The notes below the pieces were generated by a model. The model ran no database searches and had not been told where the DNA came from. It saw only the letters and a list, made by a program, of their open reading frames with translations. A stretch of 64,000 bases of DNA from Auricularia sp. M13 (taxonomy: Eukaryota > Basidiomycota > Agaricomycetes > Auriculariales > Auriculariaceae): contig CM073194.1 of assembly GCA_037042915.1 (NCBI GenBank), positions 4,774,001 through 4,838,000 on the forward strand, read 5' to 3'. Of this stretch, positions 1,104 through 16,563 are shown piece after piece. The translations under genes and the position numbers were made by a program. Every line of letters starts with the position of its first letter. The first letter of the stretch is position 1.

Positions 1104-2187
1104 GGCATCTATCCCATCCCGAACCTTTCTCTTGGTATCACGTTACTTCTGGGCATGGCGTTGAGGCTTGAACGAAAATTGAGCGCACACCGATCTGAGC
1201 TCTGTGCCAGAAAAAATGAGAGAAAGAGGGACGCGCGGAGTTGCAAAGCTTTGAACTAGGCTTGTCCCGCGCGTGTGTCATCTCCAAGCGCAAGCACCGG
1301 CGCGCGATGTCCCCCACACCGCCTCCTAACTTGGCGCGCTTTTTCTACGCGTCGCACATGCCAACTCGTTTGACAGCACTTGCACCTTAAGGAGCCGTAA
1401 GTAGCACATATTCGACGTCCTGCCACCGTTGCCAGCGGCTGTTTCTGCAAGTCGCGTTCACCGCCCACCGCCTGAAGCTTGATGGAATCCGCGCACGAAA
1501 AGCGTACGATAGCTATCTTGATCTTCTGCCTTTGCATGTCGGCCTCGCATTGCTCACGGTGGCGACCGTCTTCGACAGGAAACTCAACCAGGATCCCGTT
1601 ACCGCCAGGTCAGTTGATGGCGCCAGACCGGGCTGCATAGAGACCCAAAATTGCGCGGCAGATACACAAGACCTTTGCAGGCTCTGGGCCCGATGGACCT
1701 GGTGGACGCGCGCAAGGCTCTGGTGCGAGCGACAGCCGTGTTCGATGCCCAGCGGCGCGAGCAATCGACCCCGCAATCCGGCGCTTTGCGCGGACATGAT
1801 TACTTCACAAGGCGTTCAAGACAGTCTCACGTGTGAGGAAGGCGGTTTGATGGATTTAGAGTGGTCTATCATGCCCTGAAATCCGGAGAATGCAAAGAGT
1901 CTCGGACGATCGATCCCCTGTCTCCATGGAATGTGCAGTGCAGACGATCCAGCGGATGATGAGGTTCTTCGGGTCTGGCTGTGGGCGCTCATGAAGTTCT
2001 GCAGTGTTCTTACGTCTCAGAGGTCAGTTGATTTGATTTAAAATATGAAAGCTGTGTACTACAGGCACAACGAAACGCAAGCGCGGTCAAGCCCATGTCC
2101 ATTCTGTCACTATCTACGCTGCCATGAAGAGTTTAGAAAACCGCGGTGGAAGTATTAATATCTGTACAAGGGAGGGACGCCATCTTG
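1104..2187. other. Intergenic region with F-box-like N-terminal fragment
   Basis: No complete gene was seen. The + strand at 1693-1836 encodes a short alpha-helical stretch (MDLVDARKALVRATAVFDAQ) typical of the region before the F-box in basidiomycete F-box proteins. It is not followed by an F-box. It carries copy 2 of the 25-bp repeat and is best read as a gene fragment. Confidence 0.4.
1761..1785 (+). repeat. 25-bp direct repeat, copy 2
   Basis: Exact match to positions 1-25. Sequence diverges immediately after the match, so this is one edge of the duplicated tract. Confidence 0.7.
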
Positions 2188-3094
2188 CTAACGTCGGTCG
2201 GACGCTATTGCATTGAACTTGAAGGGGTATGAGTTCGACCGGCTGTTGTACATCGCGCCGCTTGGGATGCCGTGGTCTCTTTCAACACGATAGGCCTGCG
2301 CTATGGGCGAGTCAGTATTTACGTCGTTGATAACCTCTGCTGGCCGGCGAGCACCAGCGTCGAGGTTTTGTAACTCTATTTCTCGCGAAGTCGGGGAGCG
2401 TCGGTGTTGCCGACTGCTCGGCGAATCATCTTCCCATAAAACGGCAGACACAATGGCAAGAAATCCCAGGGAAATCATCAGCCCGATCGCCATCCAGACG
2501 GACAGGTTTCCGCAGATTATAGCCGGATTATTGGTGCATCTCCTGAGGGGTAGTAGCGCGTGAGCATTGAACGCGCTGCGCAGTGAGTTGAAGGTTGAAC
2601 TCACGGATCTTTGGCCCCGTGACAGTCGAGGATTCTCCTCAGTTCTGAATAGAGGATGATGCCCGATTGTTGAAGATCACCGTGCCGCAGAGTATGTCAG
2701 CGAAGAAGGCACAATGGAGAAAGAAAGAAATCATTATCGGTCCGAGACGACGGTTTATCAAGACACCCATCATCCAGACGCCTCCACCAAGGCAGCACCA
2801 GAAAAAAAGTTGGATGGCCGCTATGGGAGGTTATTCAGATTTTTTAACGAGATACTGAGGTTGGGTTTTCTGTTGCTCACCAATTGCAGGTCCGGGATCG
2901 ACTTCCTGTGGGACGCGACGCAATTGCGCAATGCCGGCACCACTCGTGACAGTGGCAATGAACCAGAAAAAGAGAGCGACCATAAAAAGTTTGAGGAAAA
3001 CCCCGTTATGGCTCCAATTGCCCCAGCCGATGCGGCTGGAGGCTGATGAATCAACGAGATCAGACTGTCGCGGACTGGTAGGTGCGCGGGACAT
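2188..3094 (-). CDS. Four-helix membrane protein with an apparent frameshift
   Basis: Exons: 2881-3094, 2605-2820 and 2188-2542, with introns of 60 bp (GTGAGC donor) and 62 bp (GTGAGT donor). Exon 1 encodes MSRAPTSPRQ…, then a helix LKLFMVALFFWFIATV. Exon 2 encodes two helices (FFWCCLGGGVWMMGVL and IMISFFLHCAFFADILCGTV). Exon 3 encodes a fourth (VWMAIGLMISLGFLAIVSAV) and a polar tail, about 225 residues in all. The helix content and continuous topology support one gene. However, exon 2 changes frame between VIFNN and ILYSELRR near 2650-2665: one frame stops there and the next continues well. A one-base indel (mutation or sequence error) explains this. I do not recognise a named family. Confidence 0.55.
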
Positions 3095-4088
3095 GGTGAA
3101 CGTGGTCCTTTTTGGTGGGCCATCGGAGAAGGGTATGGGGCAGACCTTAAGAAGACCGGCGGCAGTGCATGCCAAACACCAAAAGGAAGATAGGTGCCTC
3201 GCAGCGGAACGAGAAGCCCGCGGAGGAATGAGGAGTGAGTTGCCCAGCCAAACGACAGTCATTTGGTTGCGGAGATGTGTGAAATATAAGCTGGTGGAGC
3301 CAGACGCGAAAGCAAACACTAGCAGATTCACGGACGGAATCTTGGAAGGACGCGTAACGATCCTGTGCGAAGCGCCCGGCCTTTCTGCAAAGAAGCATCG
3401 TCAAGTCACACTGACAGTGAATAGATCCGACGGAAGAAGTAAAGCTGTTTGCTTTGGCCAGCGCGCGCAGGGAGTTCGAAGCATGCCCAGGGGAAGTTGG
3501 ACGAAGAAACACATGGCGCAGTGCTGTTCTTGCGCTTCTGCTCGACTTAAGCATATGAAAGGAGCGAGTTGGGTCGAGCGTCGCTGGCAGAGCGCTCGCG
3601 GTCTGCTGATGATGCTCGATCGAACGAAGTTGCGAGCCGGAAGCCCGCGGAGTTTGCTTTGTCCCTTGTCTTCCTCCGTTTTAGAACTTCCCATTATTTT
3701 GCCAGGAAATGCACTAGCACCACGTTCCAAAACGCTCAAACGGCGATATATCACCGATATGCGCTTCTGCGGTACCTGCACATGCTGCCCCTCTGATAGC
3801 GACTAGCACTTTGGCCGTCGCTCATAGACCAATGTTTGCTGCTTCAAGCTCGATGTCTCCTCGCTTCCAAGGATAACTTACGGCTCAGCTGTACTCGGAC
3901 CTCAGATTTCTCTGAGCAGATGATAATCCAAGGTCGTCCATCTGGCTACAGAAAAATGTGTTGAATAAACAAACGAGTGGTATGTAACCTGTGCATCAGC
4001 ACAGGCAGTGTACAACAGGACTGACCGTACATTAGGTTGTGAAAAGACTCCTCTACGTATACTATGGGTGAATAATACGACGCCTCCG
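3095..4088. other. Region without a recognisable gene
   Basis: Open frames exist on both strands (the longest, about 291 codons on +, overlaps the membrane-protein exons), but none shows plausible protein composition or exon structure. It probably holds the promoter of the membrane-protein gene and the 3' flank of the phosphatase. Confidence 0.4.
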
Positions 4089-5553
4089 TCAAGCGGTGGC
4101 ACCGCACGAAGCAACCCAGCGAGCATCGCCCCACTTCGCCGCCGCCGCTTTTGCGTGCTTTTTGACGAACTCGCGGACGCTGCACGTGCCGTACTGGCGT
4201 CCCAAGCCCGTCTGGCAGCCCAGCGAAACCGGCGCGTCGTTGAGCAGCAAGCGAACTTGCGGCTCGCCAGCGCCGCACGAAAAGCGCTCCCACAGCATCT
4301 GCGCGCCGAAGGGCACCTGGCTGCTGGTCCGGAATTTGCGGTTGTGCGGCACGGGGCCCGTAGCGCTGAGCGGGTGCGCGTCCGCGAAGAGCCCGAGCGC
4401 GGTGAGCGCGAGGTCGATGGTCGTGTCGTGCCCGAACTCGAGGTGCATCGCCTGCTCCGTCGCGTTGGTCGGCGTCAGGATGCCGACGAGGCGCGCAACG
4501 TAGAGCGAGCCGAGCGTCGGGCCCATGTCGCCTGGCAGGTTGTAACCGAACGCGCCGTCCATGAGCAGGTCGAGCTCGTACTCGAAGGACTGCAGCTCGG
4601 ACTGCTGGAACGCGCCGCACCATGGCGAGTACGCGGGTCCGAGGGCCGCGAGATCGTATGCGCAGGCATACAGCGCGCCGTGCACGTCGTCAGCGGTCAG
4701 GTTCAGACCCGGGATGGCCTTGTTCAGCCGCTTCGCGATGGGCGGGAGGTAGACCTTGCCCCACGCCACGACGCCCTGCAGGCATTCAATTCAACAACCA
4801 TCAAAGTCATTGCGGGAAGACTGGACGTACGTCGTTCCCATAGTCGTACTTCCAGTTCTTGCACGTGTTCATGGGCGTGATCCAGCTGGGCGTCACGCTG
4901 TCCTCCGCGATGCGCTCGTACGTCGAGTTGTCCCACGCGCGGCCAAAGTAGCCCCGCGCGAACCACTGCGCGCTCTCCTCCACGCGGTCCTGGATGCCCG
5001 CGAGGATCGTCGTCGCCTGCAGGTGCGGGTAGCGCAGGCGCATCGCGACGCCATGCTCGAACAGCGTCTGCCGCCCGTGCGCGCTCAGGTCGTTCGCGCC
5101 TGGAGCGTTCGCAAGGTTGGTTCAAGCCACTATATTCTGGCCGCGTGACGTACCGAGCGTGGACGTATAGCCCTTTTTGAGGAACGCAAGCCCGGCGGGG
5201 AGACGCGCCTTGGCGATGGCGCGCTTCCCCGCGTCGCTCTGCAACTTCGCGACGAGCGCCTGGATCGGCGGCAGCTCGCTCGCGAGGGGGTACCGGTCGC
5301 CGTGTCTGCCCATCTACAATTCCACTCACGCGTCAGCTCATATGCCACACCACATCCCAGCACGCACATAAAGCACCCTATCAACGACGCACTCGTCCGG
5401 GAGGTCCTCGCGGACGCCCGCGGGGACGGGCGCCTTGTGGTACGGCGAGAGATTGCCCAGCGCATGCGCCACGCTGTCGGGCACGACCGCGGCTGCTGCT
5501 GCTGCGCTGCTAGCAAGGGCGAGACTTCCGGTGAGCGACCAGACGCGAACCAT
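4089..5553 (-). CDS. Secreted histidine acid phosphatase (phytase/MINPP clan)
   Basis: Exons: 5368-5553, 5154-5313, 4831-5099 and 4089-4775; three introns of 54-55 bp with GTGCGT and GTACGT donors. The joined frame closes at 433 aa. A signal peptide (MVRVWSLTGSLALASSAAAA) precedes the mature part. Residues 64-71 hold the catalytic GRHGDRYP motif (the RHGxRxP signature), and a late GHDTTIDLAL supplies the HD proton donor, so both halves of the branch-2 histidine phosphatase site are present. The length is normal for fungal phytases and MINPP-like acid phosphatases. The family hydrolyses phosphomonoesters, often inositol phosphates, outside the cell or in the secretory pathway. Substrate preference cannot be read from sequence. 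The inositol oxygenase gene lies just upstream on the same strand. Confidence 0.9.
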
Positions 5554-12953: not shown

Positions 12954-13649
12954 TATTATAAGCCGTGTAAATTCACGCTCCTGGGATGCGTACCTGGCGT
13001 GACACGTTGTATTCAGCCGTTCAGCGTGCTTTGCGCCTCGCTTGGGGTGGTCGGGTACGTAGGACCTAAGGGCCGATGGTGAATGGGCAGCTGTATGCAC
13101 CAACATGTTCCAGCAACGAGCTACGGCGAAGGTTAAGCTGCTATCAGCAGTTTGTCATGCACAGGGGCACGGGGAAACTGTGGCGACAATTTTTCGCACT
13201 CCGCAGGCTGGCGGCTCAGCTTCTGCTTACCCACGTCCGGTCATGACCAACGACTTCTCAGCCAGGAAGCGCGAATTCTGGAACGCTGAAGCGGAGCATG
13301 TGCCTTGCGTACCCGTTGCATAAAACAGGCTATCTTTTCTGGCTATTCCTGACGCTCCTGGCATGGCCGCGCTGCAAATCACTCGACGGCTCGCGTGTTC
13401 GCAATAGCGGCTCCGCCTACTGCAGCTCATGCACTTTTGGCGAGTGGATTGCAAGGTCAGGCGTGTCTCGTGGATTCGGTTCTCTGACATATTCGTGCTC
13501 GGGTCTAGCCATGCTTCGTAACGATTCGGGACGATAGGCATGGTTTTATTGATTAAACTTAGAGAAAGCTCAATGAATCAACTTGAAGGATCTAATTTTC
13601 GCCCATTTCAGGCTGTGTCCATGGACCAATTTTTCTCGCGCAGTAACAT
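12954..13649. other. Intergenic region
   Basis: About 700 bp between two minus-strand genes. Short open frames only; nothing recognisable. Confidence 0.35.
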
Positions 13650-14284
13650 CTAGTCCTCGGGGTCAGCCGGGCTCGCTGGGCCCGGGTTGAAGAGCAAGGC
13701 GTCGATCCCGATGGGCATGGACTGTGCGACGATCTTCCAGGTGTGCGAGCCCACGGGGGACCCATGGCTGCTGAAGAAGCGCTGTTAAACCCGTGAGATT
13801 CAGGGAGACTATGAAGATGAGACGAGGGTGGCTTACCCCGTTGTACTGCGTTTCCGGCGACGGGTTGACGTTCTCGAGGCTGCCGGCGTCTTCGCCGTCG
13901 CGGAAAAACCTGACTTCGCCCTTGGCGCCTTTAGGGCTGACGGTGTAGACGGAGCCACCACTCCCGACGAAGGTCACCTCGGCGCTGCCACCCTGCGCGT
14001 TGGGATGTGCGTTCAGATTCAATGCGTCGACGCAGTGAGAAAGCTACGCACGACTGGGATGACGGTGCAGCTACCGCCGCGAACGAGCGAGTTGTTATCG
14101 TTGACCCTGGTAGAGCCGGCCGAGAACGTCCATGCGGTGGCTATTGCAAATGGAGTCAATGAGCAACGCACAAGCGTAGCGACGCGTAATGCAACGCACA
14201 CTTGTCGTCAATGGTCGCGCTGTCCTGGGCGGCGACGAACGAGAACGCAACAGCGGCGAGGGCGAGAAGGCGAGCAGAAAACAT
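13650..14284 (-). CDS. Small secreted protein, unknown
   Basis: Exons: 14200-14284, 14052-14140, 13837-13992 and 13650-13781; the frame closes at 153 aa. The signal peptide is MFSARLLALAAVAFSFVAAQ. The mature protein is beta-rich with WTFSAGSTRVN, AEVTFVGSGGSVYTVSP and SHTWKIVAQSMP, and carries a single cysteine. The family is not recognised; small secreted proteins of this kind are abundant in wood- and litter-decay fungi. The oddity is upstream: a 683-bp TIR element begins within 1-2 bases of the ATG, so the usual TATA-to-ATG spacing is broken. Confidence 0.7.
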
Positions 14285-14286
14285 TA

Positions 14287-14969
14287 GGGGGTTTCACGGT
14301 AGGCTTTTCAGGCCGTTTCTGGGCCGTTTTGATGCCGTTTCTGGAGTCATTTTACGGCCATTTCGAGCTGAGAAAAGGCATCAAAAACGACCTGAACTGT
14401 GAAACCCCCCTCCAGAAATCCATTTTACGGTCAGTTTTGATGTCTTTTTCCCCATCCCGAGAACGAGTCCCTACTCCCCTCCAGGCCCCTATCTATGTCG
14501 ATGAACTTGTTCCGAAGGCTTGAATAGTTATATAGACATATCCCAAGTTCTTCTATGATTTGTACAGATAGTATTTAGCAGGGCAAAGACGAATAGAGTG
14601 AGAAAATTATAGCATAGGGTGCTTTATAGCTTATGTACCAATATATGCACCATAGGGGACCTTCAGCCTGGTTCTTTGCTGCGTCACGAGGAGCGGAACA
14701 GCTTTACGGCGGGTCTACAGCGTGGGAACTCTGAGGCTTTGCCGCTGAGGCACCAGTAACCGCGGACCGCACGCAAGGGAAAAATGGAAATGTACAAAAA
14801 CAAAAAACGACCGCAGAAACAACTTGAAGCCGTTTCTGCAAAAGCCGTTTCTAGGCCGTTTCCGGTACTGTTTCGTGTGTTCCGGGGTCCCGTTTTTGCA
14901 GAAATGGACAAACAAAACGCCGTTAGAAATGGCGTAGAAACGGCCCAGAAACGCTACCGTGAAACCCCC
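14287..14969. mobile_element. Non-autonomous TIR DNA transposon (MITE-like)
   Basis: The ends are inverted: GGGGGTTTCACGGTAG at 14287-14302 and its complement at 14954-14969. The TSD is either TA (14285-14286 and 14970-14971) or ATT (14283-14285 and 14971-14973), with element limits shifting by one base. GCCGTTTCTG-like 10-mers are repeated at both subterminal regions, as in transposase-binding arrays. A further copy of the terminal motif lies near 14399-14409. No transposase frame is present. Confidence 0.75.
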
Positions 14970-14971
14970 TA

Positions 14972-15858
14972 TTGTGTTGAAGATAGGAAGTGGGATGCGA
15001 GGCAAGATCTCCAGTGCGCCCAGTATTTATAATTCCCTGCTCCTCAGCCAAAATGACGGAATCCGGCGGGATTGTGTATCCCGAGGTCGAAGCGCGGGAT
15101 GTCCGAGAGCTTCGCCTGTGCAATGACTGGCCTCCCAGGTGACAATTCAACTGGCCCTTCAAGTTGTCCGCAAGTCTCTCGCACAGCACCCCTTACCCCG
15201 ACACTTGCTCTTGTACGTCCGACCTAAGGCGCCCGCTCTGTCGCTGCAGGCGCAGATACGGGACGAGCTCCATTTTTATTCTGTCATAACAGGCCCGTTG
15301 GAAGACGGAATGCCGTTAGCGGGCCTCATCGCCACGCAAGGCGCAGCTGCGTTTACACGTGGATCTGCAGATCAACTCGCGAATTGGGTGGGATTCTCCG
15401 CTTCACCGCATAATGGAATGATCAAGTCCGATCCATCGCGGCCGATCACTTGCGGTGGGACAATTTTGAAAGAAGAATAGAGCCTCCCATCAGGAAAACC
15501 CGATTCTCCCTAGTGCGACCTAACTGAACTCTGTTGACGTGCGCGCTGATACCCGTTGCCGCAGTCCGTCTCTTTCGGGACGGTGCCTCCAGTGCAACTC
15601 AATCTGACTTCTGGCGCTGCGAGCGCATCCCGGAGCTACCACACGGCAATCTCTGGAGCCAAGGAGCGGGCAGCAGCTGCTAGCCAGTATCTGGAGCATT
15701 CAATCCGAGATCTCATACGCTCCCGTACGCATATCTCGCATGTGCCGCTCTCACTTACCGAGATTGAGACTTTCCCTCCAGCTGCCCAGCATACAGTCGA
15801 GGAGCACCCACATTGCCTTAGACGATATCCACAGCCGACCACTGTGTCTATCCTCCTT
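14972..15858. other. Region between two elements, no firm gene
   Basis: A plus-strand ATG at 15052 opens MTESGGIVYPEVEARD and could be followed by short introns, but I could not build a convincing model. A further open frame at 15556-15969 runs into the palindrome. Possibly a decayed gene. Confidence 0.3.
15024..15031 (-). promoter_or_regulatory. TATA box displaced from the small secreted protein gene
   Basis: On the minus strand it reads TATAAATA. With the transposon removed it would lie about 50-55 bp before the ATG at 14284, matching other genes here; at present it is about 740 bp away. Confidence 0.45.
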
Positions 15859-16563
15859 ATAGTGTACAATAATTATTTTATCCAAAATCGAGCCCCCATT
15901 CAGTTTTTCGAGGTGTCTTCCAAGATCTCACCCCTCCATCCAAGAATTGGTGAGGGATCCAAGTTGTAGTGCCTGTCATCCAGATTGATGTCACCGGATC
16001 CAAATCTGGTGCCGGCAATCCAAACATCGCACACCCCAGATCCAAGAAATGCCTCCGGAGATCCAGGTCCATGTAATCCAACTCCAAGTATCTCTGAGCT
16101 CCTTCATGAGAAAAATCGAAGTGATTATTTATTTACACTGGGGTTGTCGGAGTCCGCTGCTTCTCGGGCCCGAAGGTCGGTGTTGTCCGGAGGGTCGGCA
16201 TCCACATTCATTGAACCGCTCCGGGGATCGGTCGGGCAATGCCGACCTTCGGGCCCGAGAAGCAGCGGACTCCGACAACCCCAGTGTAAATAAATAATCA
16301 CTTCGATTTTTCTCATGAAGGAGCTCAGAGATACTTGGAGTTGGATTACATGGACCTGGATCTCCGGAGGCATTTCTTGGATCTGGGGTGTGCGATGTTT
16401 GGATTGCCGGCACCAGATTTGGATCCGGTGACATCAATCTGGATGACAGGCACTACAACTTGGATCCCTCACCAATTCTTGGATGGAGGGGTGAGATCTT
16501 GGAAGACACCTCGAAAAACTGAATGGGGGCTCGATTTTGGATAAAATAATTATTGTACACTAT
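15859..16563. mobile_element. Foldback palindromic element with 322-bp arms
   Basis: Arms 15859-16180 and 16242-16563 are inverted copies around a 61-bp unique spacer (16181-16241). Translations of the two arms match residue for residue over more than 100 codons, so identity is essentially complete. The outer ends read ATAGTGTACAATAATTATTT. A TA sits at each edge (15860-15861 and 16561-16562), compatible with a Tc1/mariner-type insertion. No transposase is encoded. Open frames inside are mirror images of each other and not host genes. Confidence 0.85.

Follow-up and report, generated by a model that had tools for sequence, protein, structure and literature searches.

A DNA transposon of the Pangu type very probably inserted into the start codon of a secreted-protein gene in Auricularia sp. 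M13, where a 3-bp target duplication rebuilt the ATG and the promoter was displaced to the far side of the element. This reading comes from comparing the locus with related sequences across the genome (52 Mb in 14 contigs), and the event it describes belongs to a known kind, the ordinary transposon insertion, of which the locus is a well documented example. The window, that is, the whole stretch of 64,000 nucleotides that was analyzed (contig CM073194.1, positions 4,774,001 to 4,838,000), has a G+C content of 55.6% and contains the following features:

13650..13781, minus strand: exon 4 of the secreted-protein gene with the stop codon (gene model and paralogue alignment)
13837..13992, minus strand: exon 3 (gene model and paralogue alignment)
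14052..14140, minus strand: exon 2 (gene model and paralogue alignment)
14200..14284, minus strand: exon 1, encoding a hydrophobic, signal-like N-terminus (gene model, with GT-AG introns where the paralogue aligns)
14282..14284, minus strand: start codon ATG, with A and T in the duplication and G in the flank
14283..14285, no strand assigned: left copy of the target duplication ATT, overlapping the start codon at 14282-14284
14286..14970, no strand assigned: non-autonomous DNA transposon of 685 bp, probably Pangu-type (PHIS/Harbinger2), recognized by its terminal repeats AGGGGGTTTCACGGTAG and its copies
14971..14973, no strand assigned: right copy of the target duplication ATT, assigned from sister copies
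15024..15031, minus strand: putative displaced core promoter (TATA box) TATAAATA, common to the element-free paralogue (promoter piece 39/50, E 4e-4)

The four-exon gene model encodes 153 residues in an uninterrupted frame, and a Pfam search of the protein, in pieces and as the joined model, returned no family. Relatives of the gene are present in C2 near 5.100 Mb, on the contig that also holds the window (64–65% protein identity for the two pieces of the protein compared), and in C7 near 2.268 Mb (50–55% identical); a third match, in C10, is weak (46%, E 0.0125).

An earlier note on this DNA had placed a 683-bp terminal-inverted-repeat element directly against the ATG; the element was confirmed, and its length was corrected to 685 bp. 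Its terminal inverted repeats start with AGGGGG, are perfect over 17 bp and sit within 52-nt arms that are 81% complementary, so that imperfect pairing extends to about 50 nt. The element holds no transposase frame (the longest ORF wholly inside it, among the ORFs listed, is 75 aa), and its ends match those of a long element on C7, L040, over 126 bp at 76% and 183 bp at 88%; the missing transposase frame and the ends in common with a longer relative mark it as non-autonomous, or MITE-like. There are eight near-complete copies in the genome, the window copy included, which are 97–100% identical, and one further copy at 82%. The window copy itself is 96.7–98.2% identical to the seven other near-complete copies and 82% identical to the eighth sequence compared. 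The same ends also delimit related subfamilies (about 150–430 bp) and longer elements with lengths between about 3.2 and 3.7 kb. One copy (L026, 1482–1501; C8 near 2744577) directly adjoins CCCCCTAA, an end resembling that of another element, which suggests an insertion at the edge of an older element.

Taken alone, the window copy fits an ATT and a TA duplication equally. The other genome copies and their duplications, which the earlier note had proposed to search for, were collected with a pattern for element edges. This search counted 108 edges (100 listed) against 33 in a backwards control, and some of the edges with three mismatches are therefore chance matches. Thirty-six copies were scored, with single-ended edges and the pairs C8:569358, C8:1099500, C9:734629, C10:3576264 and C7:2546181 left out. 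The flanking triplets are identical on both sides in 33 of the 36 copies and read AAT or ATT in 30, AGT in two and ATA in one. Because the edge pattern included AWT (mismatches were tolerated), the central triplet is in part a product of ascertainment; no pattern specified the flanking C and G. Among the 33 copies with identical triplets, 26 have a C before the triplet and 25 a G after it (counted from the tally), and the complete oriented target CAATG occurs in 17 of the 33, giving C-AAT-G as the preferred target among the scored sister copies. The remaining three copies (L052, L059 and L071) have AAT at one end and ATT at the opposite end, which could reflect the joining of ends from two insertions or a mutation in one triplet.

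A nested pair (L039, C3 near 3930400) provides both the filled and the unfilled state of one site. Here, a 678-bp member (2104–2781) lies within a 3.2-kb member (2000–5171) with AGT duplicated, and comparison of the filled site, AACAGT-element-AGTACC, with the unfilled AACAGTACC in nine sister elements gives a duplication of exactly 3 bp. If the duplication were instead TA, as in Tc1/mariner-like elements, the ATG would lie beside the insertion and would never have been interrupted. Every listed edge does have TA before the G-rich end, but TA was part of the pattern used to find these edges. The middle bases of the triplets correlate between the two sides of the element, as a duplication of 3 bp requires (33/36 copies), which speaks against a TA duplication, as do the 3-bp difference at the nested site and the DDE_Tnp_4 transposase of a relative. 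We give the TA reading almost no credence: the sister copies together with the nested filled and unfilled site rule out a Tc1/mariner TA duplication, and they equally rule out the canonical Harbinger TWA duplication. The same two lines of evidence uphold the proposal, made conditionally in the earlier note, that the element landed inside the start codon and that a 3-bp ATT duplication rebuilt the ATG.

The sequence of events would then be as follows. A transposase encoded by a relative of 3.65–3.67 kb presumably acted in trans to move the non-autonomous element, which would have inserted by cut-and-paste into a C-AAT-G site whose ATG was the start codon of the secreted-protein gene. Staggered cleavage would duplicate AAT, and the downstream side would read ...CCCCCT-AATG, with the ATG rebuilt, the reading frame kept, and the TATA box and natural 5' leader left on the other side. 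We infer that the insertion is fairly young. The target motif accounts for both the precise site of insertion and the restored start codon: ATG is part of CAATG, and duplicating AAT regenerates it. For the same reason, an ATG stands at one edge in 26 of the 36 scored copies (counted from the tally).

The displacement of the promoter was assessed by local alignment of window positions 13400–15400 with the C2 paralogue, which carries no element. The coding alignment begins exactly at the ATG (446/639 identical). The promoter piece TATAAATACTGG lies beyond the element in the window and directly before the ATG in the paralogue, with 39 of 50 positions identical (E 4e-4); the comparator is a paralogue rather than an allele, and this promoter match is short. 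Further upstream there is an exact 16-bp match (E 0.005) at nearly equal spacing, 94 versus 93 bp. The alignment of the element-free promoter with the far side of the element bears out the claim that the insertion separated the ATG from its TATA box. With the element removed, the A of the ATG would be 59 bp away from the first T of TATAAATA and 52 bp away from its last base, and the corresponding TATA-to-ATG distance in the paralogue is 56 bp. The additional claim that this spacing recurs at other genes holds for the paralogue, the one gene on which it was checked, and finds no counterpart in the C7 relative, where local alignment returned coding matches and no promoter match. When the genome was searched with the upstream flank, no second copy turned up; the same search also missed the weaker promoter similarity of the paralogue. 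A foldback element occupies window positions 15859–16563, about 0.8 kb past the displaced TATA box. Its two 331-nt arms are 99% complementary and enclose 43 nt, and related copies, mostly 78–86% identical, occur at roughly a dozen further genomic sites.

Pangu elements are described as having ANT duplications and terminal repeats of 11–40 bp that start with AG or GG, with autonomous members of about 3487 bp that encode a DDE transposase and a second ORF lacking known motifs, and they are reported from three basidiomycetes among others (available part of Han et al. 2015, PMC4482050). They were equated with Repbase Harbinger2 in the accessible portion of a 2025 paper (PMC12730594). The family described here has 3-bp ANT duplications, the ATA copy being the exception, terminal repeats within the same length range that start with AG or GG, and long relatives of 3666 and 3651 bp. 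In the 3666-bp copy, L040, removal of two introns yields a 459-residue protein that matches DDE_Tnp_4 (PF13359, E 1.5e-31) and DDE_Tnp_1 (PF01609, E 1e-10), so that the family includes a relative with the DDE transposase of autonomous Pangu elements; the separate transposase ORFs had given only matches below the Pfam cut-off, which the exon-joined model resolved. Candidates for the second ORF of the long relatives lie on the strand opposite to the transposase, two of them without a Pfam match at E 1.

Filed by its duplication, ends and size, the window element fits a non-autonomous relative of Pangu. The family resembles Pangu, as outlined in the available part of PMC4482050, in its ANT duplications, AG-starting ends and relatives of autonomous size near 3.5 kb with a DDE transposase, and the window copy differs from an autonomous Pangu in being a 685-bp derivative without transposase. 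The 5-bp preference C-AWT-G, with its flanking C and G, is unmentioned for Pangu in that part of the paper. The DDE_Tnp_4 transposase of the relative and the 3-bp duplication are shared with canonical PIF/Harbinger elements, for which the same text gives TWA, whereas the duplication here is mostly AWT. Han et al. linked Pangu to bacterial IS5 by the ANT duplications (PMC4482050). Insertions of IS5 upstream of genes can activate them, but IS5 is prokaryotic and, unlike the family in the window, duplicates a tetranucleotide, most often CTAG (available part of PMC5493358). The promoter MITEs of Fusarium, as presented in the accessible text of PMC3599309, are likewise short inverted-repeat elements directly upstream of genes; the window element differs from them in having inserted in the start codon itself. 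Among the publications considered, judged by title or the start of the abstract, none reports a CAATG target for the family or such a start-codon insertion in a fungus.

A second insertion close to a start was found at a locus on C1 near 3318536 (L043, 2004–2413), where a related element of 405 bp ends 4 bp before a probable ATG. The exon beginning with this ATG is strongly coding-like, and later exons encode Ssl1 (E 1.2e-19) and TFIIH C1-like (E 3e-14) domains; the exons would appear to belong to a single gene for the TFIIH subunit Ssl1. No other Ssl1 locus was found in the genome. Since yeast requires Ssl1 for viability, an element just before its start is evidently tolerated at this locus. 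A third copy (L057) may lie within about 20 bp before a start, as judged by eye.

These near-start cases raise the possibility of an active preference of the family for start codons or the 5' ends of genes, over and above its motif. The frequency of start-like ATGs near element edges was compared between 70 flanks, with the nested L039 copy left out, and 318 background values. At high scores, the flanks are ahead of the background (3/70 versus 3/318 at score 3.5 and 2/70 versus 2/318 at score 4), and the two best-scoring flanks, those of the Ssl1 locus and of the window copy, lie above all 318 background values; L057 points the same way. However, the counts at lower scores (4/70 versus 9/318 at 2.5 and 3/70 versus 7/318 at 3) count against a preference, and only two or three copies produce the excess at high scores; one of these is the window copy, which was selected for sitting at a start codon and so should not count. 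The frame following the ATG stays open for 20 codons in 12 of 23 ATG-flanked insertions, compared with 57% of 159 CAATG sites in the window. In this test the window copy is the sole insertion to reach the top of the background, which the two paralogue starts nearly or fully reach as well. Coding-like flanks, defined as those whose stronger direction scores 10 or more and read by eye, are about equally frequent away from the element (10/68) and toward it (8/68); these 68 flanks represent 34 places, with two L051 copies taken as one and the nested L039 copy left out. The open-frame, coding-flank and start-score comparisons thus give no clear support to start-codon targeting, which we consider very unlikely. 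Since CAATG contains ATG, an exact hit needs no special targeting, and the target motif and chance suffice for the one observed here.

What the insertion does to expression can be framed from the leader. Read from the old TATA box, it would contain eight upstream ATGs, each opening a short frame that terminates ahead of the main ATG. At -12 relative to the ATG of the gene there is an in-frame stop, which excludes an N-terminal extension from the element. A search of the leader for a GTRNGH splice donor found none, and removal of the upstream ATGs by leader splicing was rejected on this ground. The old promoter now lies about 690 letters further from the gene, and we consider it somewhat more probable than the alternatives together that transcripts continue to begin close to the old TATA box, giving them a leader of about 700 nt with eight upstream ATGs and reducing protein output.

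The main alternative is that the element itself now supplies the promoter, with a start near a TATA-like site and a shorter leader. Two such sites, TATATAA at -250 and TATAAA at -344, lie on the strand of the gene, and the Ssl1 locus indicates that an element in this position can be tolerated. Short A/T motifs are common, however, five ATGs still precede the main ATG downstream of -250, and the element at the Ssl1 locus is of another subfamily and says nothing on where transcription starts; a promoter within the element seems to us rather doubtful. Similarly doubtful is the view that the insertion has silenced the gene for good and that it is becoming a pseudogene: the displaced core promoter and the eight upstream ATGs would favor silencing, but the modeled frame is open over its 153 residues and the introns can be aligned to the paralogue.

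Beyond this locus, the lineage might be seen as a self-repairing device for promoter replacement, possibly kept by selection since the ORF survives, although we regard this as quite improbable. If it were true, hits on starts would never damage the protein and would always swap the upstream region, given that C-AAT-G is a common fungal start context. The locus offers a clean natural case in which a transposon alters the upstream region of a gene and leaves the protein untouched. How this affects transcription and translation can be measured directly with the help of the element-free paralogue and the Ssl1 case.
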